Below, in pieces: positions 2,299 to 64,000 of a stretch of 64,000 nucleotides of DNA (position 1 is its first letter; each line of letters begins with the position of its first letter). Both the position numbers and the translations under genes were made by a program. Location of the stretch: contig NZ_SOHL01000013.1 in the NCBI RefSeq assembly GCF_004403985.1, positions 62,001 to 126,000 on the forward strand, in the 5' to 3' direction. Under the pieces are notes generated by a model that was given only the letters and a program-made list of their open reading frames with translations, was not told the DNA's origin and made no database searches. The stretch comes from Cryobacterium gelidum (lineage in GTDB: Bacteria > Actinomycetota > Actinomycetes > Actinomycetales > Microbacteriaceae).

Positions 2299-2306
2299 TA
2301 CTTCTA

Positions 2307-3149: not shown

Positions 3150-3338
3150 TGTGGCTACCCTCTCGTTGGCAGGACTCCTGCAATTCTTTAGAATATGGCC
3201 GTAGAGCACCTGGTTCCGGCCAGATTGCACGAGTTGCGCCGCTGGGAGGGCCGGCCGGAGGGGAAACGACCAGTGTTGCGCGGCAAAGTTGTGGATTATC
3301 GTCAACGGGGAGCGGCCCAGGGGTGCCGGTAGAGTGAA

Positions 3339-4946: not shown

Positions 4947-4963
4947 GGACGTCTAACACCACG

Positions 4964-8569: not shown

Positions 8570-8607
8570 TCGGGGCTGTCCTTCGGCTTGTCTGACCTCA
8601 ACGATAG

Positions 8608-45541: not shown

Positions 45542-45647
45542 TTTACTTCTCGTGCCGGTCTTATCGGCGTGCGGTTGATTGAGGTTGTGGAGATCGACAC
45601 CACGAAATCCATCCGCCGCTTACTCGGCGCAGACGAAAGGCCACCCC

Positions 45648-46319
45648 ATGTTTCAGATGACGAAGAAGCGCACCCTCACCCTCGCAACCCTGGGCCTCGC
45701 CGGGTTGATGTCGGTCGGCGTGATCGCCGCCCAGGCGAACACCGTCCCCAACGTCGTGGCTCCGACCAGCACGTCGAGCAGCAGCCCCGCCTCTACCGAT
45801 ACGCCCAATGCCCCCGGTGCCCCCGACGACAGTGACGGACGCGTCGGCTCGGGCAACGGCATCGACGATGGAGCCGACGCCCCCGACGACAGCGACGCAC
45901 GTATCGGCTCGGGCAACGGCATCGACGATGGAGCCGACGCCCCCGACGACAGCGACGCACGTATCGGCTCGGGCAACGGCATCGACGATGCCCCCGACGC
46001 CCCCGACGACAGCGACGGACGCATCGACGATCACGTCGATGACTCGATCAGTAACGATGTGGACGACGCCCCGGACGACAGCGACGGACGCATCGGCTCC
46101 GGTCATGGCGCCGACGACGTGAACGAAGCCCCCGACGACAGTGACGGCCGAGTCGACGGCAACTCCGGCTCCGGCAACGCGGTCACGGTCCCGGTCACGG
46201 TCGACGACTCAGGACACGATGAAAGCAGCGATGACTCCGGCAGCGATGATTCCGGCAGCGATGATTCCGGCAGCGATGACGGCGCCGACGACTCGGGCCA
46301 CGGCAGCGATCACGAGTAA
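45648..46319 (+). CDS. Secreted highly acidic repeat protein
   Basis: This 223-residue protein has a signal peptide (MTKKRTLTLATLGLAGLMSV, cleavage likely after AQA near residue 30). The mature part is strongly acidic, built from 20-residue units of APDDSDARIGSGNGIDDGAD type (residues 58-170), followed by a DDSGSDDSGSDDSG tail. Asp/Gly-rich repeats suggest calcium binding, but the exact RTX nonapeptide is not present. A histidine kinase and OmpR regulator follow on the opposite strand, convergent and only 29 bases away, and may control or sense it. Confidence 0.75.
   Translation: MFQMTKKRTLTLATLGLAGLMSVGVIAAQANTVPNVVAPTSTSSSSPASTDTPNAPGAPDDSDGRVGSGNGIDDGADAPDDSDARIGSGNGIDDGADAPDDSDARIGSGNGIDDAPDAPDDSDGRIDDHVDDSISNDVDDAPDDSDGRIGSGHGADDVNEAPDDSDGRVDGNSGSGNAVTVPVTVDDSGHDESSDDSGSDDSGSDDSGSDDGADDSGHGSDHE
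45819..46157. repeat. 60-base in-frame repeats encoding acidic units
   Basis: Three near-identical 60-base units lie at 45819-45998, with two or three decayed copies up to about 46157. The two central copies are almost identical at nucleotide level. The repeat is coding in one frame throughout. Confidence 0.9.
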
Positions 46320-46348: not shown

Positions 46349-47005
46349 TCAGGTGAGTCGGTAGCCCATTCTGCGTACCGTCTCAATGCGTTCCGCACCG
46401 AACTTCGCGCGCAGGTACCCCACATAGACGTCGACGATGTTCGACCCGGGGTCCCAGGAGTAACCCCAGACCCGGCTGAGCAGCTGTTCCCGGCTCAATA
46501 CCTGGTCGGGGTGACGCAGAAATTCTTCGGCGAGCGCGAATTCTCGGGCAGAGAGGTCGACCTGTCGGTTCCCCAGTGTTGCCCGCCGGGTACGCAGGTC
46601 GAGTTGCAGCCCGTCGACGCTGAGCACGGAACTCGTCGCCCGCGGGGCTTCCGCCATGCGTAGTCGCGCCCGCGCCAGCAGCTCGTCGAACCGAAACGGT
46701 TTCGACATGTAGTCGTTGGCGCCGCCCTCGAGGCTCGCCAGGGTGTCTTCAGCCGAGTCGCGGGCGGTCAGCACGATCACCGGCAGCTTGGAACCGTCGG
46801 CCCGCAGCTGCCGTAGCACCTCGTAGCCGTCGAGTCCGGGCAACCCGATGTCCAGAATGAGCAGGTCGAAGCCGCCGGTGATGGCGTAGTCGAGGGCATC
46901 CGTTCCGGTGCGCACCACGACGGTGGCGAACCCGGCGGCGACGAGTCCCTTCTCGACGAAACTGGCGATGCGGTCTTCGTCTTCGGCGATCAGAATGCGA
47001 CTCAC
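46349..47005 (-). CDS. OmpR-family response regulator
   Basis: This 218-residue regulator has a receiver domain with acidic residues at 8-10 (IAEDED), the phospho-acceptor Asp52 (LLILDIGLPGLDG) and Lys102 (YMSKPFRFDELL), then a winged-helix DNA-binding domain with LSAREFALAEEFLRHPDQVLSREQLLSRVWG in pieces and VDVYVGYLRAKFG. It overlaps the kinase gene stop by 4 bases, so the pair is coupled. Confidence 0.93.
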   Translation of the reverse strand: MSRILIAEDEDRIASFVEKGLVAAGFATVVVRTGTDALDYAITGGFDLLILDIGLPGLDGYEVLRQLRADGSKLPVIVLTARDSAEDTLASLEGGANDYMSKPFRFDELLARARLRMAEAPRATSSVLSVDGLQLDLRTRRATLGNRQVDLSAREFALAEEFLRHPDQVLSREQLLSRVWGYSWDPGSNIVDVYVGYLRAKFGAERIETVRRMGYRLT

Positions 47006-48462
47006 GAGCGGATGTCCTTCAGGTCGGGTGACGCAGGCGCCTGGTCGGTGGGGAGGTCGATGGTGAACGTAGAGCCGCCGCCAGGGGTCGGGGCGACCAG
47101 GGCCGTGCCGCCGTGGGCCTGCGCGATGGCCGCCACGATGGCCAGGCCGAGGCCGGAGCCGGCCGGCCCGCGTCCGGGAGTTCCTCGCTGAAACCGGTCG
47201 AAGACACGTGGCAGCAGCTCGTCGCTGATGCCGGGCCCGTGATCGCTCACCCAGAGGTGCAGGTGGGGCCGACCGGCGGCATCCAGTGTGAGGGCGCTGC
47301 CGAGCTCGATCACTCCGGTCGGCGCTCCGTGCGTGACCGCGTTGGCGGCCAGCTGCAGCAGCGCCTGGGTCAGTTTGTCGGCGTCTACTAGCACGACAAC
47401 ATCGGCCGTCGCCGTCACGACCCAGCTGTGTGCCGACAGTGCCGCCGCTTTGAGGCGCACCCGCTCCACGAGCGCAGTGATATCGGTGGGGTGGACGTTT
47501 GCAAGTGCGGAGCGTTCGACCTGGGCGAGGGCCGAGATGTCACGCACGAGGCCGCCCATGCGGTCGAGTTCGTCGATCGCGAGATCGCGGGTGGCCACGA
47601 CGTCTGACGCATTGTCGGGGTTCATCAACTCGAGGTGCCCTCGCACGATGGTGATCGGCGTCTTCAGCTCGTGTCCGACATCATCGAGCAGCTGGCGCTG
47701 CCCGGTGAGCGCGCCCTGCAGGCGGTCGAGCATATCGTTCACGGTGGAGGTCAGAGCCGACACGTCGTCATGACCGACCACCGGGATGCGTTCGCTCACA
47801 TCCGACGCGGTGATACGCGCGGCAGCCTCACGCAGGCCGCGAATCGGTCGCAGCAGGCGACCCGCCACGACCCAGCCGACCAGCCCGACGACGATCAGGG
47901 TCACCAGGCCCACGATCAGATAGGTGCGGGAGGCATCGGAAACCGGCTTCAGTTCGGCGTTGAGATCGAAAGCGGCAATGAACGTGCCCCGCGCCGGGTC
48001 GCCGTCGACGGAGACCGGTACGAAGACATAGCGCAGCAGGCGGCCCGACGCCGTGACGGTGCCGAGAACGACCTCGCCCGAGCCCGTTTCGGTCTCGCTG
48101 CGCTGAACGAGCGCGTCGTCGGCGAGTCGAAAGTCGACGGCACGGGGTTCGAGCGCCGCGACCCCATCGATGACGGCAAGGGTGCTCTCATTGGTCGCCG
48201 GGCGAACCCCGGCGATAACCGCCCGCAAGGTGCCGCGCAGGTCGCGAGCTGCGGAGTCGGCCGCGACGATACGCACGTCGTCGACGGTGTCGATGAGCAC
48301 CGCGTCAATCTCGCCCAGGGTGCGTTCACTCTGCACCACGTACGCGGTCGTTCCCGCGATCGCCAGGCCGGCCGCGGTCACGAGCAGGATTGCGGCCAGA
48401 ATGCGCACGCGCACCGACAGCGTCGGGCTCCGCCGCGCACGCACACCGATCGGGTCCGTCAT
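47002..48462 (-). CDS. HAMP-containing sensor histidine kinase
   Basis: This 486-residue kinase has TM1 near residues 17-40 and TM2 near 175-197, with an extracytoplasmic sensor between them that lacks a recognisable domain, then a HAMP segment. HisKA follows with VGHELKTPI (the phosphorylated His), the N-box QLAANAVTHG, G1 DHGPGI, F-box VFDRFQRG and G2 GSGLGLAI. ATG 48462 is chosen because the upstream 32 residues are rich in Cys and Pro and poorly supported. Its ligand may be related to the secreted repeat proteins or protease nearby. Confidence 0.92.
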   Translation of the reverse strand: MTDPIGVRARRSPTLSVRVRILAAILLVTAAGLAIAGTTAYVVQSERTLGEIDAVLIDTVDDVRIVAADSAARDLRGTLRAVIAGVRPATNESTLAVIDGVAALEPRAVDFRLADDALVQRSETETGSGEVVLGTVTASGRLLRYVFVPVSVDGDPARGTFIAAFDLNAELKPVSDASRTYLIVGLVTLIVVGLVGWVVAGRLLRPIRGLREAAARITASDVSERIPVVGHDDVSALTSTVNDMLDRLQGALTGQRQLLDDVGHELKTPITIVRGHLELMNPDNASDVVATRDLAIDELDRMGGLVRDISALAQVERSALANVHPTDITALVERVRLKAAALSAHSWVVTATADVVVLVDADKLTQALLQLAANAVTHGAPTGVIELGSALTLDAAGRPHLHLWVSDHGPGISDELLPRVFDRFQRGTPGRGPAGSGLGLAIVAAIAQAHGGTALVAPTPGGGSTFTIDLPTDQAPASPDLKDIRS

Positions 48463-48595
48463 GCACTCAGTATGGCGGGTGCCAACGAGAGGCCCGAACG
48501 CGCACCAGAGCGGATGCTGCCGCCCACAGCACGGGCCGGCTCGCGTGGGCTGCGCCACGGCATCCGCTGCATCGGGTCGGAGCGAGCTCCTCGCA

Positions 48596-51317: not shown

Positions 51318-54300
51318 ATGACTGGTTGGTTGGTTCTTTGGAGCTTGAAGTTCCGCCTTCTCGTGCTGGCCATCGCGGCCGGGACTGTGGGCTTCGGGAT
51401 CGTCAATCTGCCGGAACTGGCGGTGGACAACCTCCCCGAATTCGCCCCCCCTCACGTGCAGGTCCAGACCGAGGCCCTCGGGCTGTCCGCGGTCGAAGTC
51501 GAGCAGCTGATCACGTCTCCAATGGAGGCCGATCTGCTCAACGGTGTCGCCTGGCTGGATGAAATTCGTTCGGTATCCGTACCGGGTCTCTCCTCCATCG
51601 ATCTGATCTTTGAACGCGGCACCAACGTGCTCCGTGCACGGCAGCTGGTCGCTGAACGGCTCACCCAGGCGTTTGCCTTGCCGAACGTGTCCACTCCGCC
51701 GGTACTGATGCAGCCATTGTCCTCGACCAGCCGGGTCATGATGATCCAGTTCACCTCCAAGGAGGTGTCACTGCTCGACATGTCCGTCCTGGCACGTTGG
51801 AACGTCAAGCCCAAATTGATGGGCATACCGGGCGTCGCGAACGTTTCCATCTGGGGCCAGCGGGAACAGCAGCTTCAGGTGCAGGTCGACCCCAACGAGC
51901 TGCAGGCGCGAGGCGTGACCCTGAATCAGATCGTCGAAACGACCGGCAATGCCGTCTGGGTGTCGCCGCTGAGCTTCCTGGAAGCATCCACACCAGGCAC
52001 CGGCGGATTTCTGGAATCTGCCAACCAGAGGATCGGCATCCAACACGTCCTGCCGATCCAGAACCCCGAAGACCTCGGCAAGGTCGCCGTCGAGGGTTCC
52101 GGTTCGGTCGGCCAGGGGCAGCTATTGCTCGGAGATGTGGCCAGTCTCTCGGAAGATCATCAACCCCTGATCGGCGACGCCATCACCGGCGCTGAGCCGG
52201 GTCTGCTGCTGGTCATCGAGAAATTCCCAGACACCAGTGTCAGCGAAGTCACGGCGGACGTCGAGGATGCCCTCGACGACCTGACGCAGGGCATGGCCGG
52301 GATAACGGTCAACTCCACCGTCTTTCGCCCGGCGTCCTTCCTGGAGAGCGCCTTGGAGAACCTCGCCCTGGCACTGTTCGTGAGTCTGCTCCTGGTCATC
52401 GCCACGATCTGGCTCGCTTTCCGTTCGTGGCGTTATGCACTGATCGGTGCCGTCGCGATCGGGGTATCCGCGACGGCCGCCGCAGCGTTGCTCTTCGTGC
52501 AGGGCGCGGTCTTCAACACAATGGTCTTTTCCGGGCTGGTGCTGGCCTTAGCCATTGTGGTGGGTGATGTGATCGGGGACCTGCACGCTCTGCGGCTGAG
52601 CGAGCGGGCGGGCGGTATCCGAGGCTCCTCGATGCGAGCTGACCAGAAGACGCCAGCCGCTCCGGATGCCATGGCGCAAGATGGCCTGCTGATCCGGGCA
52701 ATGAAACGCTCACGCACCCCGGCCATATTCGCCGCCATGGTCTCGGCCCTCGCAGTAGCCCCGGCTCTTTTTGTCGGCGGCTTGGACGGGCGGCTGATTC
52801 AGCCGCTGGTCTGGGCGTATCTGCTGGCCCTGCTCGTTGCCATGATCGTGGCACTGACCGTCACCCCGGCGCTGGCTAGTTTCGTTCTGCGCGGCAATCG
52901 TGCCACGCCGCCGGAGCCGATTTTTGTGGATCGACTGCGGGCCAGCTATCAGAACGCAATCGACAATATGACTTCAGGTCGGCGGTGGGTTGCGGCGGGG
53001 ATCGTCGCGGTGATCGCGATCGCGTCGGTGGCGGCCCTCCCACTCCTGGCCGGGGACAAGCCGATTCTGGCCGAGGTCCCTGACCGCACCATTCTGGTGC
53101 AGTGGGAGGCTGCGGCGGGCACCGCGGGCACCGAAATGGACCGCATCATGGAGAACGCCGGCGCCGAGCTACGGCAGGTGGCCGGCGTCGAGTCTGTGGG
53201 TGGCCACGTGGGTCGGGCCATCACCTCGGACACGGCATCCAACGTGAGCGCTTCCGAGCTTTGGGTCACGATGAGCACCGGAGCAGACTTCGGCGCCATA
53301 CGGCAGGCCGTGCAGGAGATCGTGGACGGATACCCGGGGTTGTCCAATGAGGTGCTCACCTATCCGGAACGGCAAATCAAAACGGTGCGCTCGGCCGGGG
53401 ATGCGGCCTTCGCGGTGCGCGTTTACGGCATCGACCTCACCATCATGCGGGAGAAGGCCGAGGAGATCCGGCAAATTTTGGCCGACACCGAGGGCATAGT
53501 CAAGCCGCGGGTGGACGTATCAGTGGATCAACCCATCGCGGAGATCGAGGTGGATCTGGCAGCCGCCGAAGAATTCGGCATCAAGCCGGGTGACGTCCGA
53601 CGAGCAGCCGCCACCATTCTGCAGGGAATCGAAGTCGGCTACCTGTTCGAACAGCAAAAGGTTTTCCAGGTTGTGGTGAAAGGCGATGAGGCCTCCCGCA
53701 ACAGCCTCACGAGCGTTCGAGAACTGGTCATCAACACTCCGAGTGGCGGTCATGTCCAGCTGGGCGAGGTCGCCACGGTCACGGTCAGGCCGAACCAGAC
53801 GGTCATCAACCACGACGATACCTCGCGCAGCATCGATGTGGTGGCCGGTATCCAGGGACGAAGCTTGGCTGCTGTCACGACCGACATCCAGGCCGCCATC
53901 GCGCAGCTGGAGTTCCCGATGGAGTACCACGCCGTAATCCCACCGCAGTATGAGGAGCAGCAGGCAGCCGGGCAGCTCGTCTGGTGGTTGTTCGCCGCGG
54001 CGGGAATTGCAATTCTCATCCTCCTGCAAACGGTGCTGGGCGGCTGGCGGCTGGCCGCTTTTACCTTCATTCTCCTTCCCGTGCCCATGCTGAGCGGGCT
54101 GGTAGCGGCCGTTTTGACCGGCGGCATCAACTCGCTCTACTTACTGGTGGCCTTCGCGGTCGTGCTGGCGATCGCGACGCGGGACGTCATCCTGCTCCTC
54201 GGCCGATACCAGACCCTGCAAGTCTCCGACCCATCGCTGAGCTCAGCCACTCTGATGCGGCGGGCCGCCACCGATCGGCTGGCTCCGACCGTCGTAGCCG

Positions 54301-54539
54301 CCCTGGTCATCACCCTGGCACTGATTCCCATGGTGCTGTTGGGCGGTGTCGTCGGAACCGAGATCCTCTTGCCGCTGGCCGTGATCATCTGGGGTGGGCT
54401 GCTTGGCGCGGTCCTGCTGACGCTGGTTATTTTGCCCATTCTCTTCGTTCGATTCGGCCCAACGAGCCAGACCGACTGGGAAAGTTCACTCGTAAGTAGC
54501 GATGGACCAGGACTGCACGAAAGGCAGGAAGCGCTGTGA
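51318..54539 (+). CDS. RND-superfamily permease, heavy-metal (CusA/CzcA-like) branch, with altered TM4
   Basis: This 1073-residue protein has the RND plan: TM1, first large exterior loop (VDNLPEFAPPHVQVQTEALGLSAVEVEQ in pieces), TM2-6, second loop, TM8-12. The early motif [15 protein letters not shown] matches its neighbour RND. In heavy-metal RND pumps TM4 carries the proton-relay aspartate followed by an I-E-N motif. Here the segment reads VVGDVIGDLHAL, with Gly416 at the aspartate position and His423 replacing the glutamate; a second Asp417 remains. A hydrophilic insert follows (about 430-455). It may be a non-relaying partner of the second RND protein. The last 4 bases overlap the lipoprotein start. 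Confidence 0.85.
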   Translation: MTGWLVLWSLKFRLLVLAIAAGTVGFGIVNLPELAVDNLPEFAPPHVQVQTEALGLSAVEVEQLITSPMEADLLNGVAWLDEIRSVSVPGLSSIDLIFERGTNVLRARQLVAERLTQAFALPNVSTPPVLMQPLSSTSRVMMIQFTSKEVSLLDMSVLARWNVKPKLMGIPGVANVSIWGQREQQLQVQVDPNELQARGVTLNQIVETTGNAVWVSPLSFLEASTPGTGGFLESANQRIGIQHVLPIQNPEDLGKVAVEGSGSVGQGQLLLGDVASLSEDHQPLIGDAITGAEPGLLLVIEKFPDTSVSEVTADVEDALDDLTQGMAGITVNSTVFRPASFLESALENLALALFVSLLLVIATIWLAFRSWRYALIGAVAIGVSATAAAALLFVQGAVFNTMVFSGLVLALAIVVGDVIGDLHALRLSERAGGIRGSSMRADQKTPAAPDAMAQDGLLIRAMKRSRTPAIFAAMVSALAVAPALFVGGLDGRLIQPLVWAYLLALLVAMIVALTVTPALASFVLRGNRATPPEPIFVDRLRASYQNAIDNMTSGRRWVAAGIVAVIAIASVAALPLLAGDKPILAEVPDRTILVQWEAAAGTAGTEMDRIMENAGAELRQVAGVESVGGHVGRAITSDTASNVSASELWVTMSTGADFGAIRQAVQEIVDGYPGLSNEVLTYPERQIKTVRSAGDAAFAVRVYGIDLTIMREKAEEIRQILADTEGIVKPRVDVSVDQPIAEIEVDLAAAEEFGIKPGDVRRAAATILQGIEVGYLFEQQKVFQVVVKGDEASRNSLTSVRELVINTPSGGHVQLGEVATVTVRPNQTVINHDDTSRSIDVVAGIQGRSLAAVTTDIQAAIAQLEFPMEYHAVIPPQYEEQQAAGQLVWWLFAAAGIAILILLQTVLGGWRLAAFTFILLPVPMLSGLVAAVLTGGINSLYLLVAFAVVLAIATRDVILLLGRYQTLQVSDPSLSSATLMRRAATDRLAPTVVAALVITLALIPMVLLGGVVGTEILLPLAVIIWGGLLGAVLLTLVILPILFVRFGPTSQTDWESSLVSSDGPGLHERQEAL

Positions 54540-54985
54540 AGACCTTGAGTTCGTTGAAACGTGGCACACTGTCGGCCGCAGCATTGACCGCGGTCATCCT
54601 GACGGGCCTGACTGGATGCGCCACCCCTGACGCCGACGCGACCAGCGGCATCGCAGCAGCCACGAAGGAAGAGATCGCGGGTACCGACCTGAACCGACTG
54701 ACCCTCACGGAGAAGGCCGTCGAACGACTCGACCTCGCGACGGCACCGGTCGCGGCGGGCATTAGCGGGCTGGACATCCCCTATGGGGCCCTGATCTACA
54801 CCGCGAACGGTGACACCTGGGTGTACACCAGCCCCGAACCGCTGGTCTTCATCCGCGCAATGGTCGTCGTGGACCGCATCGACGGGCAGGTTGCGCGGCT
54901 CAGTGCGGGTCCGGCCGTCGGCACAGCTGTCGTCACGGTAGGCGCTGCCGAACTCTACGGCGCCGAATTCGACGCGGCGCACTGA
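54536..54985 (+). CDS. Minimal membrane-fusion-like lipoprotein
   Basis: This 149-residue lipoprotein starts with GTG 54536 and has a lipobox ending LTGC near residue 28. The mature part IPYGALIYTANGDTWVYTSPEPLVF, GQVARLSAGPAVGTAVVTVGAAELYGAEF resembles only the last (membrane-proximal) domain of RND membrane fusion proteins such as CusB. The barrel-sandwich/lipoyl and hairpin domains, which reach an outer-membrane channel in Gram-negatives, are absent. Gene overlap on the left and a 1-base gap on the right place it in a tripartite operon with the two RND permeases. Confidence 0.75.
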   Translation: MKTLSSLKRGTLSAAALTAVILTGLTGCATPDADATSGIAAATKEEIAGTDLNRLTLTEKAVERLDLATAPVAAGISGLDIPYGALIYTANGDTWVYTSPEPLVFIRAMVVVDRIDGQVARLSAGPAVGTAVVTVGAAELYGAEFDAAH

Positions 54986-54986
54986 C

Positions 54987-57900
54987 ATGCGTCGGATCGT
55001 CGGGTTCAGTCTCAAGTTCCGGGCGGTGATTGTTGCGGTGGCCGTCGGGATCATGTTGTTCGGGGGGGTACAGCTGAGCACGGCATCCGTCGACGTCTTC
55101 CCGGAGTTTGCCCCACCCAAGGTTGAAATCCAGACCATTTGCATCGGCCTGACTGCCGAGGAGGTCGAACAACTGGTCACCGTGCCGTTGGAGGAGGCCC
55201 TCAACGGGGTCGAGGGCCTGGAGGATCTCCGCTCCAAGTCGGTCGAACAGCTCTCCTCCATCGTGCTGATCTTTGAGCCGGGTGCCGACCTGTTGGAGGC
55301 TCGCCAACTCGTCTCGGAGCGAATAGCGACGGTGACCCCGACGCTGCCTACCTGGGCGGCACCACCCCTGATGCTGCAGCCGTTATCCTCGACCAGCCGC
55401 GTGATGAAGATCGGGCTGACCAGCGATGAGCGCTCGCTGATGGAAATGTCCATGATCAGCTACTGGACAATCCGAGCGCACTTGCTACGCGTACCCGGTG
55501 TGGCCAATGTGGCGATCTGGGGCGAGCGACTGCAAATGCTCCAGGTACAGGCCGAACCCGACAAGATGCTGGCCCAGGGGGTGTCCCTGAATCAGGTGAT
55601 GGATGTCACCGCGAACGCTTTGGATGCCGGGTTGCTGCAATATTCCCCCGGTGCCCTGATCGGCACCGGGGGCTACATTGGCACCCCGAACCAGCAATTG
55701 GGAATCCAGCATGTCCTTCCCATTGCCACGGCTGAAGATCTCGCCAATGTCACGATCGAGGAACGGAACGGAGACACGCTCAAACTCGGCGACGTGGCAC
55801 GGGTCGTCGAAGACCACCAGTCGCTGATCGGCGACGCCGTCATCAACAACGGTGAAGGGCTTATGTTGATCGTGGAAAAGCTGCCCTGGGGCAACACCCT
55901 CGAGGTGACCGAGGGCGTCGAAGCGGCACTCGAGAAGATGAAACCGGGACTGAGCGGCATCGAGATCGATACCTCGATCTTCCGACCGGCGACCTTCATC
56001 GAGGAATCCCTGGACAACCTGACCCTGTCGCTGCTGTTGGGCTGCCTCCTGGTGATGACGGTGCTCGGTGCCTTCCTGTTCCAATGGCGCACGGCGCTGA
56101 TCAGCCTGATTGCCATTCCACTCTCCCTCGTGTCAGCGGCAGTGGTTCTGTATCTCACCGGAAGTTCGGTCAACACCATGGTGCTGGCGGGGCTGGTCAT
56201 CGCCGTGGGTGTGGTCGTGGACGACGCCATCATCGACATCGAGAACATCATTCGCCGCTTGCGCCAACACCGCATCGAAGGCGGAACGAGGTCCACCGCG
56301 TCGGTGGTGCTCGAGGCCTCGCTCGAAGTTCGCGGGCCCATCGTCTACGCCACGGTGATCATCGTGGTCGCAGCCGTGCCGATCTTTTTTCTCGAGGGAC
56401 TCACCGGGGCATTCTTTCGACCTCTGGCCATCGCTTACACCCTGGCCGTGCTGGCCTCCATGGTGGTGGCGCTGACCGTCACGCCGGCGCTGGCACTGAT
56501 CTTCATGCGCGAGGTCCCGTTGAAAGCGCAGGAACCGCCACTGGTGCGGATTCTCAAACGCGGGTACCACAGGGTGCTCAGGCCAATTGTCCACCGACCG
56601 TTGGGCGGGTATATCGCCTTTGGAGCATTGGCGACGGCCGGTGCCGTGGTCGCACCGTTCCTCGGCCAGTCGCTGCTCCCGGACTTCAAGGAGCGGGACT
56701 TCCTGATGCACTGGGTCACCCAGCCGGGCACCTCGGTCAGCGAGGAATATCGGATCAGCCAGCGGGCCTGCCAGGAACTGCTCACGATTGACGGTGTCAA
56801 TAACTGCGGCTCGCACATCGGGCAGGCGTTCGCGGCCGACGAGGTCGTTGGCGTGCACTTCGGCGAGAATTGGATCAGTATCGACCCAGCTGCAGACTAC
56901 GACCAGACCCATGCCGCCGTTCTGGAAGTGGTTGAAGGGTATCCCGGCATTCACCGCGACGTGCAGACCTACCTGAAGGAGCGGATCAGGGAGGTGCTGA
57001 CCGGTTCGAGTAACGCCGTGGTGGTGCGGCTCTACGGCGATGACCTGGGCCTGCTCCGCGAGACTGCGGATGACATCTTCGAAATCTTCACAGCAATCCC
57101 TGGGGCAGTCGACGAGCATGTGGCCTTGCAGGTGGACATTCCACAGCTCAGCGTCAGGGTGGATCTGGACAAGGCCCAGCAGTATGGCCTGAAGCCGGGC
57201 GACGTGCGGCGCGCGGCGGCAACGCTGGTGGCCGGCGAGGAAGTCGGTGACGTCTACCGGGGCGGCAAGGCCTACGACGTGCAGGTGTGGAGCCCGGTCG
57301 AAATCCGCTCCGACGTGACCAGCATCCGTAACCTGCCCATTGATACGCCCAGCGGGACGCAGATCCGCCTGGCCGATGTCGCGGACGTCTTGCTGATAGC
57401 GACGCCGAATGTGATCCAACGCGAGGATGGCTCCCGGCGCATCGACATCGAGGCCAATGTGGAGGATGGCACCTTGGCCACGGTGGTCGCCAGCCTGGAG
57501 GCCGGTTTGGCGGACCTTGATCTGCCGACCGGGTTCCACGCCGAGATTCTCGGTGAGTACCAAGAACGAGAGCAAGCCACACAGCTTCTCCTGACGCTGG
57601 CCGTTCTGGCCTTGGCGGCGATCTTCCTTCTGCTCCAGGCGGCGTTTGGCAGCTGGCGACTGGCGACACTGATCATGCTGACGTTGCCGATCGCCCTGGT
57701 CGGCGGAGTGTTCGCGGCCTTCCTCGGCGGCGGCGTATTGTCGCTCGGCTCAATCGTCGGGTTCCTCACGGTAATGGGAATCGCCGCACGCAACAGCATC
57801 CTGCTGATCAATCACTGTCAACATCTGGAGAAGCAGGAAAATATGCAGTTCAGTGCCGACTTGGTGTTACGCGGGGCAGGGGAGCGCCTCTCGCCCATTC

Positions 57901-58136
57901 TCATGACCACGCTGGCCACGGGGCTTGCCCTGGTGCCGCTGGTCGCCCTGGGCAATATCCCCGGACACGAGATCGAACATCCAATGGCGGTCGTCATCCT
58001 GGGCGGACTGGTCACGTCGACCCTGCTCAACCTGTTCGTGGTGCCGTCCCTGTACCTGCGATTCGCCAAACCGAAGCCAGCACAGCCCGCGCAGCCGTTA
58101 GAGATCCGGGAGCCTGTTCCCGCCGATGCCGGCTAG
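54987..58136 (+). CDS. RND-superfamily permease, heavy-metal (CusA/CzcA-like) branch
   Basis: This 1049-residue permease begins [21 protein letters not shown] and has the usual twelve helices and two exterior loops. TM4 keeps the expected [16 protein letters not shown] with Asp412, Asp413 and Glu419. [20 protein letters not shown] marks the start of the second loop, and [19 protein letters not shown] marks TM10. The closest known activity is proton-driven export of metal ions or other toxic compounds. It shares long identical stretches with the first RND, such as [11 protein letters not shown]. Confidence 0.9.
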
Positions 58137-58192: not shown

Positions 58193-59113
58193 ATGCTCCG
58201 ATTCCGAACAGCCCTCATGGTGGGCGCATCCGTCGTCCTGCTCGCGGCGTCTGCCCTGGCAGTGGTGACTTTCACGACATCAGCCGGGTCAGCGCCCGTG
58301 GCATCAGCCGAGGAACGGTGCGGTCCGGGCTCGGCCCTGAATTTTGTGCCCGCCGATTTTCAGGACAGTCCCCGGATCGACAATGAATGGATCCCGCTCG
58401 AACCGGGCATGGAGTACACGCTGGAGGGCACCGTCACCTCGGCGGACGGGGTGCAGGATCGCGTCGTGGTGCACACCGTGACGGGGCTCCGCAAAATCGT
58501 CAACGGCGTCGCCACCCGGGTCCTGTGGGATCGCGACTATGCCGACGCCCAGTTGGCCGAATCCGAATTGGCCTTCTTCGCCCAGACCGGCGAGGGGGCA
58601 GTCTGGCTGCTCGGCGAATACCCCGAGGAGTACGAGAACGGTGAGTTTGTGGGCGCGCCCAGCACGTTTATCAGCGGCGTGGATGGTGCAGTGGCGGGCA
58701 TCGTCATGCCAGCCGCTCCGCAGGCAGATACTCCCGCACACGTGCAAGCCCACGCGCCGTCGGTGGGTTTTCTGGACTGTGGAACGGTCCTCCGTCACGG
58801 TGAACAGGCCTGCACCCCGGTGGACTGTTTCGAGAACGTACTGGTCATCGAGGAGACGAACCCGCTTGATCCAGATGGCGGACACCAGCATAAGTTTTAT
58901 TCGGCCGGGCTGGGCAATATCCAGGTGACCGCCGTTGGCGGGGCCGACCAGGAGGAGCTTCGCCTCGTGAAGATCCGACGGCTAGATGCGCCCCAGCTCG
59001 GCGCCGTGAACGCTGAAGCGCTCACGCTCGACCGCCGCGCTTTCGAGGTGAGCCCGGATGTCTATGGCACCACGTCGCGCGCCGTGATCGATACGCCTGC
59101 ACCGCGTGACTGA
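58193..59113 (+). CDS. Secreted protein of unknown function
   Basis: This 306-residue protein has a signal sequence or N-terminal anchor (residues 7-38) and a mature domain starting RCGPGSALNFVPADF. It contains the recognisable pattern DNEWIPLEPGMEYTLEG, VHTVTGLRKIVNGVATRVLWDRDY, and HKFYSAGLGNIQV, seen in a widespread actinobacterial family of secreted proteins without known role. Cys43 plus three cysteines in LDCGTV and ACTPVDCF may form disulfides. It follows the second RND gene by 56 bases with its own AAAGG site and may be an accessory exterior subunit. Its C-terminus resembles the truncated protein at 63767-64000. Confidence 0.8.
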   Translation: MLRFRTALMVGASVVLLAASALAVVTFTTSAGSAPVASAEERCGPGSALNFVPADFQDSPRIDNEWIPLEPGMEYTLEGTVTSADGVQDRVVVHTVTGLRKIVNGVATRVLWDRDYADAQLAESELAFFAQTGEGAVWLLGEYPEEYENGEFVGAPSTFISGVDGAVAGIVMPAAPQADTPAHVQAHAPSVGFLDCGTVLRHGEQACTPVDCFENVLVIEETNPLDPDGGHQHKFYSAGLGNIQVTAVGGADQEELRLVKIRRLDAPQLGAVNAEALTLDRRAFEVSPDVYGTTSRAVIDTPAPRD

Positions 59114-59194: not shown

Positions 59195-62100
59195 TCACTC
59201 GTCCCGCAGGAGTTCTGTGGGTTTGAGGCGCCCGATCTGGAAAGCCGCGGCGGCTGATGAGAGTGCTGTGGCGCACAGCACGAGCGCCGCGAGCACCGCC
59301 AACTCGGCCTTGGGCACAGCCAGCGCGGGAGAGAGAGTAAAGATCGGTCTGAGAACCTGCACGAATTGAGACGCCATGCCGATGCCGACCAGCACGCCGA
59401 TCGCGGTGCCGAGCGTTGCGGAGATGCCGGCCTCGGCCAGCACGAGAGCGCGGATGTCACTGCTGGACATTCCTTGGGCGCGCAGGGTGACGTACTCTCG
59501 GCGGCGTTGCAGCAGCATCCCAAAAACAAACATCGCCGTGGCGGTTGCTGCCATGAGGAAGGTGAAGAACGAGTCGAGTTGCAGCAGGCCCCGCACGTTG
59601 AGCGCGGTGAGGCTCGACTGGTCCCGGTCCAGAGCCGTCTCTGAGGTCAGCACCTCGAAGTTTTGCTGCAATTCTTGACCGGCGGAGAGCGCCTGAACTT
59701 CAGAGAGCCCCTGAACCGTGCGATCAAGGCCCGGGACGCTGCGGTCCGAGCTGGCGACGAGGTAATAGTCGGCGTCGGTGAGGCCCGTTTCGCGTTGGTA
59801 GAAATCCAGATTCGCAACAATGTCAGTCCCCTGGGCCGCACCGGGAAACTTGGTGAACAATCCGACGACACGCATCGGCGTTCGTGTTTGCTGATCGGTA
59901 TCGCGGGCCAGCAGCACCTCCACCGGATCCCCGATCTTGAGTTTCAAACCCTCGGCCAGGGCGATGTTGACGAGGATCCCATCCGGTGTCGACCGCAGCG
60001 CCGACAGCATCCGGCCGGCCGTGCCGGAGACGAACACGGAATCCGGCAGGGCAGCGACGGTGCCGAACGTGTCCGGGTCGATAGCCGCGAGGCTGGTGAC
60101 GTCTTCGTTGAAGTCGCTGGTGAGCACGGAGTTCTGGGACGAGAACACGACCGGGGTCGCACCGGCCACGCCCGAAACGTCAAACTCGGCACTGAGGGCT
60201 GTTGGGTGCGGCCGGTCACTTGTGGGATTCGGTGTCAACCGAATGTCCGAGCCCACCTGGAACCGAGCATCCGCAACCTTGGCGGTGTCGTAGACCGTGG
60301 CAAAGCAGGCGAGCATGGTGCCGAGGCTGACGACCAGACCCACCGTGACGACGCCACCGGTCAACGCCGTCAGCCGGCGGGTGATGCTGCGCCAGAGCAC
60401 ACCGGAGCGTAGCCGGGTGAAAGGCTGGGCGCCGCGACCGGATGCGGCGCGCGCGGTGATCTCCTGCAGCAGGTGCGCAATGAACAGTGTGCCCGCCAGC
60501 CAGGCGATAATAGGCGCCACGAGCAGCTGCAGTGGCAGCGTCACGGCCTGGCCGGCATACACCGAGCCTGGCGGGGCATCAAACGCTCCGAGCCGCAGGG
60601 CTACCAGCTGCAGGGCGACCGCGATGGCCAGCGCGATGAGGTCAACGGGGAGACGGTGCCAACTCGGGGTGGTGCGCTGCGAACTGATATTGAGTTGCTG
60701 TTTGATCTCTCGGGTGATCAGGCTCCGGCCGGGAACATACAGGGCGAGCGCCGTGACCAGCATGCCGCCGCTGACCCCGATCAGCGTGGATTGAAGCAGG
60801 GCGGCGGGCGACGCCTCGAACAGGATGGAGCGCCCGAGCAGCGCCAGCACCGTCGCGAAGCCCAGAACCGTTCCGAGGAGTGATCCCACCCCCGCGATCG
60901 CGACCGTGCGCAGCGCGAGCAGGAACAGCAGATGCTTGCGAGCGGCCCCCCGCACACGCAGGAGGGCGTTCTCACGGCGTTGGGCACCTGCGAGCAAGGT
61001 TCCGGCGTAGGCCGTGAGGATGGCGGCCAGGATCCCGCCCGGCAGTCCCAGAAAGACGAACAGGCGCTTGGCAACCGCCGCATCTTCCGCGGCGACGTGC
61101 AGCGTATTGGAGATGTTGTCGATCAGGTAGTCCTGACCGGAGGCCACGCCCTGCACGGCCTCGGCGATCCCGCTGGTCTGGGCGAAAGCGGTTGCCGGAT
61201 CGGAATTCAAGATGCTTCGCTCGATCAGCACGTCGAGCTCCTCGAGCGGGAGACTGTTGAGGGCGCTGTCCCGTTCGGCCGCTGCGGCTTCGAAGGCCGG
61301 CTCAACCTGGTCGCTGTAGACGCTGGGGTCCACGACCACGGTGAAGGGCACGTACCTGAATTTCTCGAGCGTGCCGGCCTCTCTGCTCTCGAAGAGCGGC
61401 CGGGCACCAGACAGGTCGGTAATACCGGTCACGTCGAGCGAAAGCGGTGCGGCCCCGCCGGGCAATTCGATCGTGACGGTACCGCCAACGCTGAGGCTCA
61501 GGGCACGTGCCGTCTCCGCACTGATCAGTGCCCCGCCTTGGCGCATGCTGCCGGAGCGAATCTTGACCGAGGGATAGTGGGACAGATACCGGGTGTCGAA
61601 GGCGAAAAGCTTGACCGGGCCAGGAACGGCGATCCCGCGGGCGGTGAGAGTTTCGGCAGCCATGTCCACGAGCACCAGCGGGTCGGCGGCCGCCACTCCG
61701 GGAACATCCGCTACCGTGTCGGCGAGAGTCTGCAGCGCGGTGGCCCTCGGGGCGTTCGCGAGGGCCGGGGTAACGGCCTCGCGGGTCGAAATCGTCGCCC
61801 GCACGGGCAGATCCGCGGTCGACGCAACGGATGCGGTTGCCCGCAGACGGTAGGTGATCCGAACAGAAACAGCGGGCTCGACCGTGCCGATGTTCAGCCC
61901 GGTGCCTGCTTCGCCTTGGAACAGCGGGCTGCCTCCTGCCACATCGACGATGGGTGTTTCGTTTTGATCGGTCGAATCCGCGACGTACTCGAGCGCGACA
62001 TTCGGTGGCACCCGAACCACGACTTCGTGGGCGGGCGCGAAACCGTCGTTGGCGATGGTCAGAGTGACGAGGGTTGTGTCGCCCGCATCCAGTGCGTCGT

Positions 62101-62344
62101 CGGCCATCGTTTGTTCCAGCCGGATGCCGCCGCCGAGGGGAGTTGTCAGCACCCGCTGCATGTCGAGCGTCAGGGGCGCGACAGCTCGCCTTGTCATCGA
62201 TGCACCGGACCCGTCGATAAAGAACAGCACCGCCGAGAACAGGCCTACCCCGACGACGACGCCCACCAGGGAGGTAAGCGTACGCCGCGGGTTGCGAAAC
62301 AGATCCCGCTGAACGAACCCGCCGAGAGTCACCTGCCCGCTCAT
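59195..62344 (-). CDS. FtsX-like ABC transporter permease with an exterior DUF11-like domain
   Basis: This 1049-residue permease has two FtsX/MacB units: TM near residues 22-44, four helices near 420-560, one pair near 590-650, and the last group near 680-700 and 935-1030. After TM1 the exterior region includes a beta-sandwich-like stretch (about residues 72-172) with TLVTLTIANDGFAPAHEVVVRVPPNV in pieces, a pattern of the DUF11/CARDB repeats usually seen in surface adhesins, and then a MacB-type periplasmic-core-like segment. Its start overlaps the ATPase gene by 4 bases. It probably exports or releases a lipid, lipoprotein or peptide. Confidence 0.85.
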   Translation of the reverse strand: MSGQVTLGGFVQRDLFRNPRRTLTSLVGVVVGVGLFSAVLFFIDGSGASMTRRAVAPLTLDMQRVLTTPLGGGIRLEQTMADDALDAGDTTLVTLTIANDGFAPAHEVVVRVPPNVALEYVADSTDQNETPIVDVAGGSPLFQGEAGTGLNIGTVEPAVSVRITYRLRATASVASTADLPVRATISTREAVTPALANAPRATALQTLADTVADVPGVAAADPLVLVDMAAETLTARGIAVPGPVKLFAFDTRYLSHYPSVKIRSGSMRQGGALISAETARALSLSVGGTVTIELPGGAAPLSLDVTGITDLSGARPLFESREAGTLEKFRYVPFTVVVDPSVYSDQVEPAFEAAAAERDSALNSLPLEELDVLIERSILNSDPATAFAQTSGIAEAVQGVASGQDYLIDNISNTLHVAAEDAAVAKRLFVFLGLPGGILAAILTAYAGTLLAGAQRRENALLRVRGAARKHLLFLLALRTVAIAGVGSLLGTVLGFATVLALLGRSILFEASPAALLQSTLIGVSGGMLVTALALYVPGRSLITREIKQQLNISSQRTTPSWHRLPVDLIALAIAVALQLVALRLGAFDAPPGSVYAGQAVTLPLQLLVAPIIAWLAGTLFIAHLLQEITARAASGRGAQPFTRLRSGVLWRSITRRLTALTGGVVTVGLVVSLGTMLACFATVYDTAKVADARFQVGSDIRLTPNPTSDRPHPTALSAEFDVSGVAGATPVVFSSQNSVLTSDFNEDVTSLAAIDPDTFGTVAALPDSVFVSGTAGRMLSALRSTPDGILVNIALAEGLKLKIGDPVEVLLARDTDQQTRTPMRVVGLFTKFPGAAQGTDIVANLDFYQRETGLTDADYYLVASSDRSVPGLDRTVQGLSEVQALSAGQELQQNFEVLTSETALDRDQSSLTALNVRGLLQLDSFFTFLMAATATAMFVFGMLLQRRREYVTLRAQGMSSSDIRALVLAEAGISATLGTAIGVLVGIGMASQFVQVLRPIFTLSPALAVPKAELAVLAALVLCATALSSAAAAFQIGRLKPTELLRDE

Positions 62345-63063
62345 GTCGGTCCCGCCATCCGGCCGGCGCGCATTTCAAGCACGGTACTCATCCGTTCGGC
62401 CACTGCCCGGTCGTGCGTGACCACGACCAGCGTGGCGCCGTGTGTCGCGTGGTGCTGCAGCAGCAGTTCCACCACCCGGTTTACGCTCGCCCCGTCGAGG
62501 GATCCGGTCGGCTCGTCGGCCAGGATGATACCCGGATTGTGCACGATCGCCCGAGCGACGGCGACCCGTTGACGTTGGCCGCCGGAGAGCTCGTCGGGGA
62601 AGCGTCGCTCGAGAGAGATCACGTCGAGCGACTCAAGCAATGCCCGGGTTTGGGCTGGCTCGTCGGCGAGGCCGGCCAACACCGCCTGCAAACCAACATT
62701 CTCGGAGGCGGTCAGGAAGGGCTGTAAGTTGCCGGCTTGGAAGACGAAGCCGAAGTGTCGGCGACGGAGGGCGGCACGGTCCGGCTCTGCCATCGCCGAG
62801 AGGAGGTGGGGACCCACCCGAACCTCGCCGGATGTTGGCGTCTCGAGACCGCCGAGGATTCCGAGCCGGGTCGATTTTCCAGATCCGCTCGGCCCGACAA
62901 TGGCCACGCTCGTGCCGGGTTCGACCGTCATCGTCACGCCATCCAGGGCTCGAATCGGTCCGGACGCCGTGGTGTACCTCATGCTGAGGGCGGTAACGGC
63001 AACGCGAAGGCCCCATCCCTTGGCAGTTGCCGGGTATTCGCGCGGTTCGATCGACCCGATCAT
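62341..63063 (-). CDS. ABC transporter ATP-binding protein (LolD/MacB type), second ATPase
   Basis: This 240-residue ATPase has Walker A GPSGSGKST, Q-loop VFQAGNLQPF, signature LSGGQRQRV, Walker B IILADEPTGSLD and switch THD. The first 22 residues before the ATPase core are unusual. It overlaps both neighbours by 4 bases (ATGA), so the group is translated as one unit. With the other ATPase, it would supply the two nucleotide sites for the single long permease. Confidence 0.92.
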   Translation of the reverse strand: MIGSIEPREYPATAKGWGLRVAVTALSMRYTTASGPIRALDGVTMTVEPGTSVAIVGPSGSGKSTRLGILGGLETPTSGEVRVGPHLLSAMAEPDRAALRRRHFGFVFQAGNLQPFLTASENVGLQAVLAGLADEPAQTRALLESLDVISLERRFPDELSGGQRQRVAVARAIVHNPGIILADEPTGSLDGASVNRVVELLLQHHATHGATLVVVTHDRAVAERMSTVLEMRAGRMAGPT

Positions 63064-63767
63064 GACGCGCGTTCCAGATGGCCGCCGCTCAGTCGAAGAA
63101 CGCGCGAACTCAGCGAGACGATCTCGGGGTTGTGGGTGACCAACAAGACGGCGAGGCCACGGTCACGGCAGGCCGTATGGAGGGTGTTGATCACCACTCT
63201 GGCGGTGGCTCCGTCGAGCTGCCCAACAGCCTCATCGGCCAGAAGCAGCTCGGGGTCGTTCGCCAGCGCAAGTGCCACGGCGACGCGCTGCGCCTCGCCG
63301 CCGGAGAGCCGCCGCGGCAGGTGGCCGGCCCGATCTTCAAGATCGACCTGCTTGAGAAGCGCGTGGATGTGAGCAGCACGGGCGGTTCGCCCGGCGAGGC
63401 GAATCGCCAGTGCAATGTTTTCCCCAGCGGTAAGGAACGGCACGAGGTTTCCGGACTGCAGCACGATGCCGATTCGCGTGGCCCGCAGCTGAGCGCGCCG
63501 GGTGTCGGGCAGGGCGCCGATATCCTGACCATCGAAGATCACCTGGCCGGAGTCGGGAACCAACAACCCGGCGATAAGCGAGACGAGCGTGGACTTGCCG
63601 CAGCCGGACGGGCCCACCAGGCAGGTGATCTCACCACGCGGCAGCTCGAGATCCAGTGCCTTCAGGACCGACGTTGTCTCGCGGGCAGTGCGGTAGGTTT
63701 TGGACACGGCGTGCAGGCTCAGCAGCGGCCGGTCCTCTGCTGCGAGAGCCGAGTCCTCGCTCGACAT
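63060..63767 (-). CDS. ABC transporter ATP-binding protein, first ATPase
   Basis: This 235-residue ATPase has Walker A GPSGCGKST, Q-loop VLQSGNLVPF, signature LSGGEAQRV, Walker B LLLADEAVGQLD and switch THN. Its Walker B lacks the DEPT sequence of the partner (DEAV), and the D-loop is GQLD. ATG 63767 overlaps the stop of the upstream gene (TGATG); the GTG at 63770 is an alternative. The two ATPases are clearly different proteins and not a recent duplication. Confidence 0.9.
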   Translation of the reverse strand: MSSEDSALAAEDRPLLSLHAVSKTYRTARETTSVLKALDLELPRGEITCLVGPSGCGKSTLVSLIAGLLVPDSGQVIFDGQDIGALPDTRRAQLRATRIGIVLQSGNLVPFLTAGENIALAIRLAGRTARAAHIHALLKQVDLEDRAGHLPRRLSGGEAQRVAVALALANDPELLLADEAVGQLDGATARVVINTLHTACRDRGLAVLLVTHNPEIVSLSSRVLRLSGGHLERAS

Positions 63768-64000
63768 CACGGGGTACGGGTCGCTTTCACATCACCGAAA
63801 AGCTCGGGTAACTCGGTGGCGGCTTGTTGGTCGATGCGGAGTGCCTCGGCGCTTGCTTCGGTCAGCCCTTCCGGGGTAAGCCTCGTGACGTTGATGAGCC
63901 GTTCGACGTCTTCGTGGCGGCTCTGGCCGCGGGGTTCATTGCGGATTTGGCCGACGCCATTGGCGTAGTACTTGAACTCGTTATCGAGCGCGGACCGCTT
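63767..64000 (-). CDS. C-terminal part of a protein related to the secreted protein at 58193 (window edge)
   Basis: Reading from 64000 leftwards, 77 codons end at the TGA at 63767-63769. The visible end contains EFKYYANGVGQIRNEPRG, then ERLINVTRLTPEGLTEASAEALRID. It resembles the end of the protein at 58193-59113 (HKFYSAGLGNIQV, then LVKIRRLDAPQLGAVNAEALTLD) in order, spacing and key residues. It is the first gene of the ABC exporter operon, linked by the TGATG overlap. The N-terminus lies beyond the window, so a signal peptide cannot be confirmed. Confidence 0.75.
   Translation of the reverse strand, partial: KRSALDNEFKYYANGVGQIRNEPRGQSRHEDVERLINVTRLTPEGLTEASAEALRIDQQAATELPELFGDVKATRTP

Follow-up and report, generated by a model that had tools for sequence, protein, structure and literature searches.

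A tandem pair of actinobacterial RND permeases, one of them with an eroded proton relay

The closest described two-permease RND pumps are MdtBC, MuxBC and SmeJK of HAE-1 clade B, in which, as at the locus described here, tandem paralogous permeases and an adaptor are encoded in one operon. According to excerpts of the published work, MdtBC-type pairs are ~50% identical, MdtBC is a B2C heterotrimer with unequal subunit roles, and relay mutations are more damaging in MdtB than in MdtC (PMC4338810). The excerpted text of a survey covering 6205 RND permeases from Gram-negatives counts 203 tandem pairs, all of clade B; Actinobacteria lay outside that survey, and no actinobacterial two-permease RND pump was found among the matches listed in our literature search, whose coverage leaves out most subscription journals. 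Mechanistic studies are still asking how many of the three RND protomers need a functional proton relay, and linked-trimer work on AcrB, as excerpted from a review, indicates that all three do.

A two-permease operon and its relatives

The locus lies on the forward strand of a 64,000-nucleotide stretch of Cryobacterium gelidum DNA, which was analyzed whole and is referred to as the window. RND1 (51318..54539) encodes a permease of 1073 residues with an eroded proton relay, and RND2 (54987..58136) a permease of 1049 residues with a complete one; 39 RND1s and 40 RND2s were compared. Both frames are open, and PF00873 (ACR_tran) matches each nearly full length (468 bits for RND1 and 725 bits for RND2, cut-off 28). 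Two RND paralogs in one operon, as claimed in an earlier note on this DNA, are indeed what the locus holds: the permeases are 41% identical over 1049 alignment positions (BLASTP), and a third gene, LIP (54536..54985), sits between them, its GTG start overlapping the RND1 stop. LIP encodes a 149-residue lipoprotein with lipobox Cys28 that resembles one part of RND adaptors, the membrane-proximal domain. A fourth gene, DOWN (58193..59113), starts 56 bases past RND2 and encodes a secreted protein of 306 residues with a predicted YmcC/LolA-like beta fold; it recurs in that place at 14 of 40 fetched related loci and is missing from the closest locus, L004. Pfam assigned no family to LIP or DOWN of the window, and matches among other members were scattered and weak (CusB_dom_1 in 1 of 30, E 0.047). 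A two-component or ABC neighbor was sought as a part of the system at 40 actinobacterial and five Gram-negative loci; such genes lay near few of the actinobacterial loci, and they were rejected as components.

The earlier assignment to the heavy-metal branch stands as a nearest-relative label only, because both proteins fall below the 701-bit cut-off of the NCBIfam CusA/CzcA family TIGR00914 (RND2 567, RND1 306) and the CusA methionine columns hold other residues in RND2. At what we take to be the triad positions, CusA 573, 623 and 672, the RND2s have His (40/40), Phe (36) or Ala (4), and Glu (40/40). Among proteins of solved structure, ZneA and CusA are closest in sequence to RND2, and ZneA, then drug pumps, to RND1. 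Given the missing CusA-type sites, a "CusA/CzcA-like" annotation in Actinobacteria should not be taken to prove that a pump exports metal.

The permeases occur together wherever intact loci were found. Among 18 loci examined, the order RND1-LIP-RND2 is kept in all 15 that belong to the clade, the other three (24% identity) lying outside it. Matches to the RND1 clade (≥46% identity) were recovered from 5 of 394, 3 of 299 and 5 of 197 genomes in three samples, all of which also have RND2; matches to the RND2 clade were present in 16 of 376 genomes, and where no adjacent pair was seen (G1057 and G948) contig ends interrupt the locus. One TGA was counted within the RND2 match of G1018, and the L153 frame is open up to that point. 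These searches covered samples of groups, with the best two to three candidates per genome scored. Related genomes in which RND1 occurs alone, which the earlier note had offered as evidence against its reading, were looked for and not seen in the genomes sampled (394, 299, 394, 197 and 376, partly shared), and no unbroken locus among those found held a solitary RND1 or RND2. A single mini-adaptor gene is present in 37 of 38 complete triads.

RND1 (30 rows, SH-aLRT 100) and RND2 (30 rows, SH-aLRT 99) formed sister clades in a tree of 75 rows, nested among single-permease Gram-negative pumps and apart from MdtB/MdtC, a placement that rules out common descent with MdtBC. The tree left out eight close Arthrobacter pairs, partial loci L160-L162, Act_L090 and Act_L054; L103 and L109 were dropped as duplicates of L011 and L017, and the frames of Act_L027, L029 and L066 were also omitted. 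The tree joins CusA with a pMOL30 protein, a grouping that is possibly false and leaves the RND1/RND2 split unaffected. Within loci the two partners are 37-64% identical (38 loci). By this phylogeny, RND1 and RND2 derive from one tandem duplication, and their association in actinobacteria is old.

The proton relay in the two partners

In a MAFFT alignment with E. coli sequences, Gly416 of RND1 shares a column with RND2 Asp412, CusA Asp405 and AcrB Asp407, and His423 falls in the column of AcrB Glu414; both residues lie in the RND1 TM4 motif VGDVIGDLHA (52560..52589). The earlier claim that RND1 has lost the aspartate at the CusA Asp405 position and has His423 for the glutamate is borne out by this alignment. 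An alignment artefact in TM4 was ruled out, as the same ungapped pairing of this segment came from BLASTP, from two MAFFT alignments and from phmmer against 7wlv; the phmmer alignment of RND1 to ZneA, which is gapped across the segment, was excluded. The change at Gly416 is not a sequencing slip, because 24 of the 39 RND1s carry Gly (20), Thr (3) or Asn (1) at that position. That another Asp or Glu of RND1 might occupy the relay, the second counter-case named in the note, proved half true: the Asp405 column holds Gly, but Asp417 is kept in the AcrB Asp408 column, so "lost the relay" is too strong for RND1. Asp421, Arg955 and Arg987 are likewise retained.

RND2 keeps [10 protein letters not shown] in TM4 (56217..56246; Asp412, Asp413 and Glu419), as the note had read it. 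When relay residues were scored across actinobacterial homologs, a check that the note had proposed, seven AcrB relay and support columns read D, D, E, N, R, R and T in 40 of 40 RND2s, and loss of the first Asp was confined to one partner, RND1, among the loci compared. Both TM4 aspartates are present in 15 of the 39 RND1s, from other lineages, and the pairing is therefore older than the loss, which is derived and falls at two separate places on the tree. The Asp417 column holds Asp in 38 of 39 RND1s and Glu in one; the TM4 Glu is retained in only three. The RND1s form a series from the complete Asp-Asp/Arg/Arg/Thr set (L148), through loss of the TM4 Glu and then of the first Asp (the Micrococcales clade), to a separate, near-total loss in L156, where the AcrB D407, D408, K940, R971 and T978 columns hold N, D, S, M and V.

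Throughout the RND1 clade without the Asp407 equivalent, Asp417, Asp421, Arg955 and Arg987 are invariant (23/23), and they account for four of the just six charged sites that never vary in the membrane region of this clade. This invariance shows that the core is still selected, and it may still move protons. RND1 could then still function as a proton pump whose relay has been rewired around one Asp, with Asp417 acting alongside Asp421, Arg955 and Arg987, either as an active partner in a mixed trimer or alone; it might carry one proton, with another stoichiometry or pKa, as CusA works with a single Asp. The near-constancy of the Asp417 column speaks for such a relay, as do the Asp-Ala found at these two columns in E. 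coli CusA and the good evidence, given in the excerpted text of a review, that AcrB Asp408 itself, the residue better supported there, cycles. However, the single Asp of CusA occupies the other of the two positions, and extrusion by AcrB is abolished by substitution of any relay residue, according to review text seen as excerpts. In RND1, moreover, drift has also affected the positions of the Glu, the Asn and the Thr as well as the CusA methionine columns, and the L156 RND1 is still open and paired despite the loss of three further relay positions. We consider an RND1 that works as a pump in this way possible but rather unlikely.

Selection, docking hairpin and lipoprotein

Each of the 39 RND1s has a long open frame, and RND1 omega, at 0.083-0.359 in the 12 pairs tried, exceeds that of RND2 in 12 of 12. 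Judged by these ratios, RND1 is under purifying selection, and the frames and omega values together rule out a pseudogene. Its faster evolution relative to RND2, seen in the tree as well as in omega, and its lost relay residues are what a decaying duplicate heading for loss, with no function left, would show; yet the same open frames and low omega, together with a docking hairpin that is near-invariant across the loci compared, make such decay highly improbable.

The constraint on RND1 is distributed unevenly among its domains, the boundaries of which were set at what we take to be the AcrB numbers; the comparison took 13 of the 23 Micrococcales pairs, together with 15 further pairs. In the 13 Micrococcales pairs, mean pairwise identity of RND2 minus that of RND1 was +0.34 for TM2-6, +0.32 for TM7-12 and +0.29 for PC1, and -0.03 for PN1, -0.08 for DN and 0.00 for DC. 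By this measure the membrane domain and PC1 of RND1 are relaxed, whereas its PN1, DN and DC match those of RND2 in conservation. The division is not a sharp one: RND1 trails RND2 in PN2 as well (+0.11, interval 0.05 to 0.17), and the two do not differ in PC2. In a control set of seven MdtB/MdtC-type pairs, the relay was complete in 14 of 14 proteins, on which we reject the idea that tandem permeases generally lose it, and the membrane domain differed by -0.08 and -0.05 (MdtC minus MdtB), MdtC being slightly but measurably less conserved. L175 and L176, with a single permease each, were left out of this set, and the L174 MdtB row is an unannotated frame running past the gene, for which only aligned columns were counted.

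The docking hairpin is extended in both partners. It spans residues 209-231 of RND1 (51942..52010), identified by alignment with what we take to be the AcrB hairpin span, and its RND2 counterpart, which differs in sequence, residues 208-230 (55608..55676). It is 23 residues long in all 39 RND1s and in the 39 RND2s covering the region, and 12 residues long in 15 of 16 outside RNDs and 16 in the other (AcrB), so that an 11-residue extension is common to RND1 and RND2 and absent from the 16 outside sequences. The hairpin is only weakly enriched in fixed residues specific to RND1 (3 of 24, P 0.047, with the region picked post hoc), and no argument is built on a strong cluster there.

RND1 and RND2 might instead be separate homotrimers with different substrates, co-transcribed and served by a common lipoprotein, the relay changes in RND1 reflecting a different coupling. 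RND permeases are mostly homotrimers in the published excerpts seen, the paralogs differ at the CusA methionine columns, and RND1 is still selected, all of which would suit such an arrangement. It accounts poorly for the absence of solitary permeases from the unbroken loci found, the single mini-adaptor gene, the relaxation of the RND1 membrane domain and PC1 beside conserved PN1, DN and DC, and the loss of the first relay Asp in one partner only, and we judge it improbable.

The lipoprotein itself is a reduced adaptor. LIP, represented by an alignment of 30 of the 39 copies found, matches the adaptors of related pumps with an hhalign probability of 99% (E 2.1e-18, 91 columns), with weaker matches in further comparisons (best E 0.003 and 9.4e-4), and its predicted structure matches CusB (Z 13.8 over 96 residues) and ZneB (Z 13.2 over 94). 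The barrel, lipoyl and hairpin domains are missing: in two alignments, ~200 residues of the Methylomonas adaptor, lying past its N-terminal strand and before its C-terminal part, have no counterpart in LIP. In its modeled fold, LIP looks like a CusB/ZneB-like adaptor cut to its membrane-proximal domain, the rest having been deleted. BesA of Borrelia, also a structural match to LIP, is an RND adaptor without the alpha-hairpin, according to excerpts of the published description; in LIP, unlike BesA, the barrel and lipoyl parts are gone too and the membrane-proximal domain alone remains.

A candidate mixed pump among known RND systems

We propose that the operon probably encodes one two-permease pump, an obligate mixed RND1:RND2 trimer with RND2 as the motor and RND1 mainly as an interlocking subunit, because RND1 has lost key motor parts but kept the parts that lock it to its neighbors. 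After a single tandem duplication in Actinomycetota, the two permeases would most likely have come to form a mixed trimer in a monoderm cell, where RND2, with its complete relay and substrate cleft, would do the energized work. RND1 would be retained for its pore, docking and interlocking-hairpin surfaces. It has lost the TM4 Glu-Asn along with the first Asp of that helix and, in the window copy, the TM11 Thr; its membrane domain and PC1 are relaxed, and its residual Asp417/Asp421-Arg955/Arg987 charge network would either lock the protomer or support a weaker, rewired proton step. LIP may cap the docking surface or stabilize it, as a monoderm cell has no outer membrane to span. These sequence patterns fit a mixed trimer in which RND1 is less energized than its partner. 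The invariance of the four-residue charge network, the two aspartates in 15 of 39 RND1s, the unclean domain split and the MdtC difference in the control count against the model. In covalently linked AcrB, one dead protomer abolishes the function of the trimer (review, excerpted text), and a motor-short mixed trimer would therefore need a different cycle.

If the proposal is true, two-permease RND pumps arose at least twice, the naturally one-sided pair and the graded relay loss across living species allow the number of relay-bearing protomers that a pump needs to be tested without engineered mutants first, and the system shows the needs of an RND pump in the absence of an outer membrane. We give even chances to the wider reading, in which heteromeric RND pumps arose a second time, independently, outside Gram-negatives and HAE-1 and went one step further than MdtBC: RND1 kept its trimer and docking interfaces and gave up motor and substrate cleft, and the adaptor was reduced to its membrane-proximal domain.

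The analogy with MdtBC, from which the earlier note had argued, extends to tandem paralogs found together but is weaker than was assumed, because both subunits retain every relay residue in 7 of 7 MdtB/MdtC-type pairs, with only a slight domain difference; the RND1/RND2 pair also arose by an independent duplication in a different RND branch. CusA, CzcA and ZneA (HME) resemble the pair in sequence, and CusB and ZneB are the best matches to LIP by predicted structure, whereas CusA is a single permease with Asp-Ala and Glu rather than Asp-Asp with Arg, and the pair lacks Met at the 573/623/672 columns and scores below the TIGR00914 cut-off. The nearest outside relatives found are single-permease pumps on Methylomonas, Hymenobacter and Sphingobium plasmids (49-54% identity to RND2), which share the TM4 sequence [13 protein letters not shown] with RND2; unlike the pair described here, they have one permease, a longer adaptor, a TolC-family channel and, in 3 of 3, a two-component system nearby, and they lack the docking-hairpin extension.

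Operon structure and the TM4 proton relay

The operon comprises four genes in head-to-tail order on the + strand: RND1 (51318-54539), an RND permease of 1073 aa; LIP (54536-54985), a 149-aa lipoprotein whose GTG start overlaps the RND1 stop; RND2 (54987-58136), an RND permease of 1049 aa that begins one base past the LIP stop; and DOWN (58193-59113), a 306-aa secreted protein that follows a 56-base gap. ACR_tran matches span nearly the full length of RND1 and RND2 alike, and their 41% identity and same-strand adjacency agree with an earlier note that described them as paralogs in one operon. One more ACR_tran protein of the source genome, of another type (TM4, VVDDSIVVIEN), lies on a separate contig. 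Two genes identified by eye as encoding a response regulator and a sensor kinase (46349-48558, - strand) are located 2.8 kb upstream, and relatives of both adjoin Gram-negative pumps in loci L143-L146. Further upstream, a secreted protein (45579-46319, + strand) carries Asp-rich repeats (DAPDDSDGRIGSGNGIDD) that leave long open frames on the opposite strand.

We aligned TM4 with E. coli CusA, MdtB, MdtC and AcrB from the MG1655 record. The alignment confirms the note's observation on RND1: Gly416 occupies the column of RND2 D412, CusA D405 and AcrB D407, and His (H423) replaces the glutamate in the AcrB E414 column. The loss of relay aspartate is partial, as RND1 retains Asp at the AcrB D408 column (D417). 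An additional Asp one turn on (D421) is common to RND2 and five close Gram-negative relatives and is absent from CusA and AcrB. The K940 and R971 columns hold Arg in RND1 (R955, R987), and those of N415 and T978 hold Ala.

Across the family, all 40 RND2 sequences read D, D, E, N, R, R and T in the seven columns that form the AcrB relay and its support. In RND1 (n = 39) the first relay column is Asp in 15, Gly in 20, Thr in 3 and Asn in 1, and the second is Asp in 38 and Glu in 1; Glu, Asn and Thr persist at their positions in 3/39, 8/39 and 11/39, respectively, and either Arg column is Arg in 38/39. When the 23 RND1s with Gly or Thr are compared, just 35 of their 399 membrane-region columns show no variation, including 6 of the 38 with a charged consensus. 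Four of these six are D417, D421, R955 and R987, whose invariance counts against a wholly dead RND1 motor. The main rival to the mixed trimer that we favor below is that the RND1 relay has been rewired, which we regard as possible but rather unlikely.

Origin and distribution of the pair

In a maximum-likelihood tree of 75 rows, RND1 (30 rows, SH-aLRT 100) and RND2 (30 rows, SH-aLRT 99) form sister clades that branch from among the single-permease pumps found in Methylomonas, Hymenobacter and Sphingobium, followed by those of Burkholderia and Acidithiobacillus, with CusA and a pMOL30 CusA/CzcA-family protein further out. MdtB and MdtC are positioned elsewhere, a topology that rules out common descent with MdtBC and establishes an independent tandem duplication. 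An extra LIP copy directly upstream of RND1 in locus L149 (10946-11428), compared with a single LIP in the other 37 complete triads, is consistent with duplication of a whole ancestral LIP-RND cassette. The Gly/Thr RND1s group as one clade, and the Asn-bearing RND1 of L156 (4154-7549, genome G1049) falls apart from them, beside L154, in which Asp-Asp is kept. The L156 protein represents a separate, near-total relay loss (N, D, S, M and V at five AcrB relay columns, with Ser and Met replacing both Arg) opposite an RND2 with a complete relay. This distribution of states indicates that the duplicate was already paired when relay parts were lost.

The complete RND1-LIP-RND2 triad was found in 37 fetched loci and the window after removal of duplicates, and three further loci are cut by contig ends. 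Among related loci from the class, family and phylum genome searches, no unbroken locus examined carried RND1 without RND2, in line with the pairing proposed in the note. Clade members occur in 5/394 genomes of the class (the tally of 75/394 otherwise includes distant RNDs), 3/299 of the family, 5/197 of the family of genome G002 and 16/376 of the phylum; this patchiness suggests that the pair was transferred as a unit. All five same-genus genomes among the matches listed in the family search are without the pair. The remaining listed matches have at most 28% (class search) or 29% (family search) identity to RND1, and at most 32% to RND2 in another genome search. Two diverged copies of the whole operon are present in G002 (L103/L104) and in genome G851 (L113/L114). 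A KSB1 contig (L019) carries two nearby tandem RND permeases, 2023-5166 and 5974-9081, outside this clade.

Domain conservation and accessory proteins

Nei-Gojobori estimates of dN/dS for the 12 pairs tried, in some of which dS was close to 0.9, were 0.083-0.359 for RND1 and 0.053-0.204 for RND2, higher for RND1 in 12/12 pairs; RND1 is still selected, though differently from RND2. Domain boundaries were presumed to follow AcrB numbers. Mean pairwise identity over 13 Micrococcales pairs (RND1 versus RND2) was 0.44 versus 0.77 in TM2-6, 0.47 versus 0.79 in TM7-12, 0.51 versus 0.80 in PC1, 0.68 versus 0.79 in PN2, 0.52 versus 0.54 in PC2, 0.81 versus 0.78 in PN1, 0.71 versus 0.63 in DN and 0.68 versus 0.68 in DC, a pattern that recurs more weakly in 15 other pairs. 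At the CusA M573 and M672 columns, RND2 has His (40/40) and Glu (40/40), identical in 5/5 Gram-negative relatives, and RND1 has His in 6/39 and Glu in 4/39. Together, the domain identities and these drifted columns indicate that RND1 retains most pore and docking surfaces, with motor and cleft loosened.

A docking-domain hairpin carries an 11-residue extension in both paralogs: it is 23 aa long in 39/39 RND1s and in all 39 RND2s covering the region, compared with 12 aa in 15 of 16 outside sequences and 16 aa in the other (AcrB). In RND1 it is near-invariant among the compared loci, even without the first Asp. We take the extended stretch to be the AcrB DN hairpin. Adjacent AcrB protomers are linked by an element that extends from the DN of one to the DC of the next (PMC8277102). 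A mixed trimer of RND1 and RND2 is the best-supported reading of these sequences and, in our judgment, a moderately probable one.

LIP, for which no Pfam family was found, has the lipobox Cys in 28/30 aligned copies (39 were found). Its profile matched the C-terminal part of the adaptors of five Gram-negative relatives (99% probability, E 2.1e-18, 91 columns), whose strand its N-terminal strand also resembles by eye; matches to solved adaptors were weak (E ≥0.003). The predicted model has a pLDDT of 85.8, with block means of 96-98 across residues 41-140, and matched CusB at Z 13.8 (96 residues) and ZneB at Z 13.2 (94 residues), followed by rows with Z ≤9.8; the best Foldseek E was 9.4e-4. LIP is best read as an RND adaptor cut down to its membrane-proximal domain. 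A review states that hairpin-less adaptors had been anticipated in Gram-positives, an expectation that was not borne out, and names BesA as the hairpin-less adaptor (PMC4446572).

DOWN adjoins RND2 in the window and in 14/40 fetched loci. Some of the fetched loci end too early to judge, but it is absent from L004-L018 despite >2 kb of downstream sequence and is therefore an optional partner. Loci L152, L159 and L162 have it as two tandem, diverged copies. Structural matches of its model (pLDDT 89.3) include YmcC-like and DUF1849 proteins at Z 11.1-11.7 and, at Z up to 8.9, LolA, a carrier of lipid-modified proteins. This resemblance, close to what the tool rates as common, is only a hint, yet it weakens the assumption of a metal substrate. 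A convergent cassette (59195-63770, - strand) follows the operon and, judged by eye, encodes a large permease of the FtsX/MacB type (1049 aa) together with two ABC ATPases.

Comparison with MdtBC and AcrB

The analogy with MdtBC drawn in the note does not extend to the lost relay: in seven MdtB/MdtC-type pairs (E. coli and six plasmid-collection records), all seven relay residues are present in 14/14 proteins, unlike in RND1. This control also rules out one-sided relay loss as a general trait of two-permease pumps. Membrane-domain conservation is slightly lower in MdtC than in MdtB (-0.08 and -0.05, intervals excluding zero), whereas the gap between RND1 and RND2 is 0.34 and 0.32. Relay mutation was reportedly more damaging in MdtB than in MdtC (PMC4338810). 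Substituting AcrB relay residues is reported to abolish extrusion, and a linked trimer to lose its function when a single protomer is inactive (PMC8277102). Further literature drawn on comprises PMC12802153 and PMC7015380.

No description of an actinobacterial two-permease RND pump was found in the literature searched, a scope outside which most subscription journals lie. The actinobacterial genes encode an independent two-permease RND system, predicted to assemble as a pump, in which one subunit has an eroded motor and the adaptor is minimal. All 203 tandem RND permease repeats in a survey that excluded Gram-positives belong to HAE-1 clade B (PMC10872679); beside these known two-permease pumps, the actinobacterial pair would represent a separate origin.
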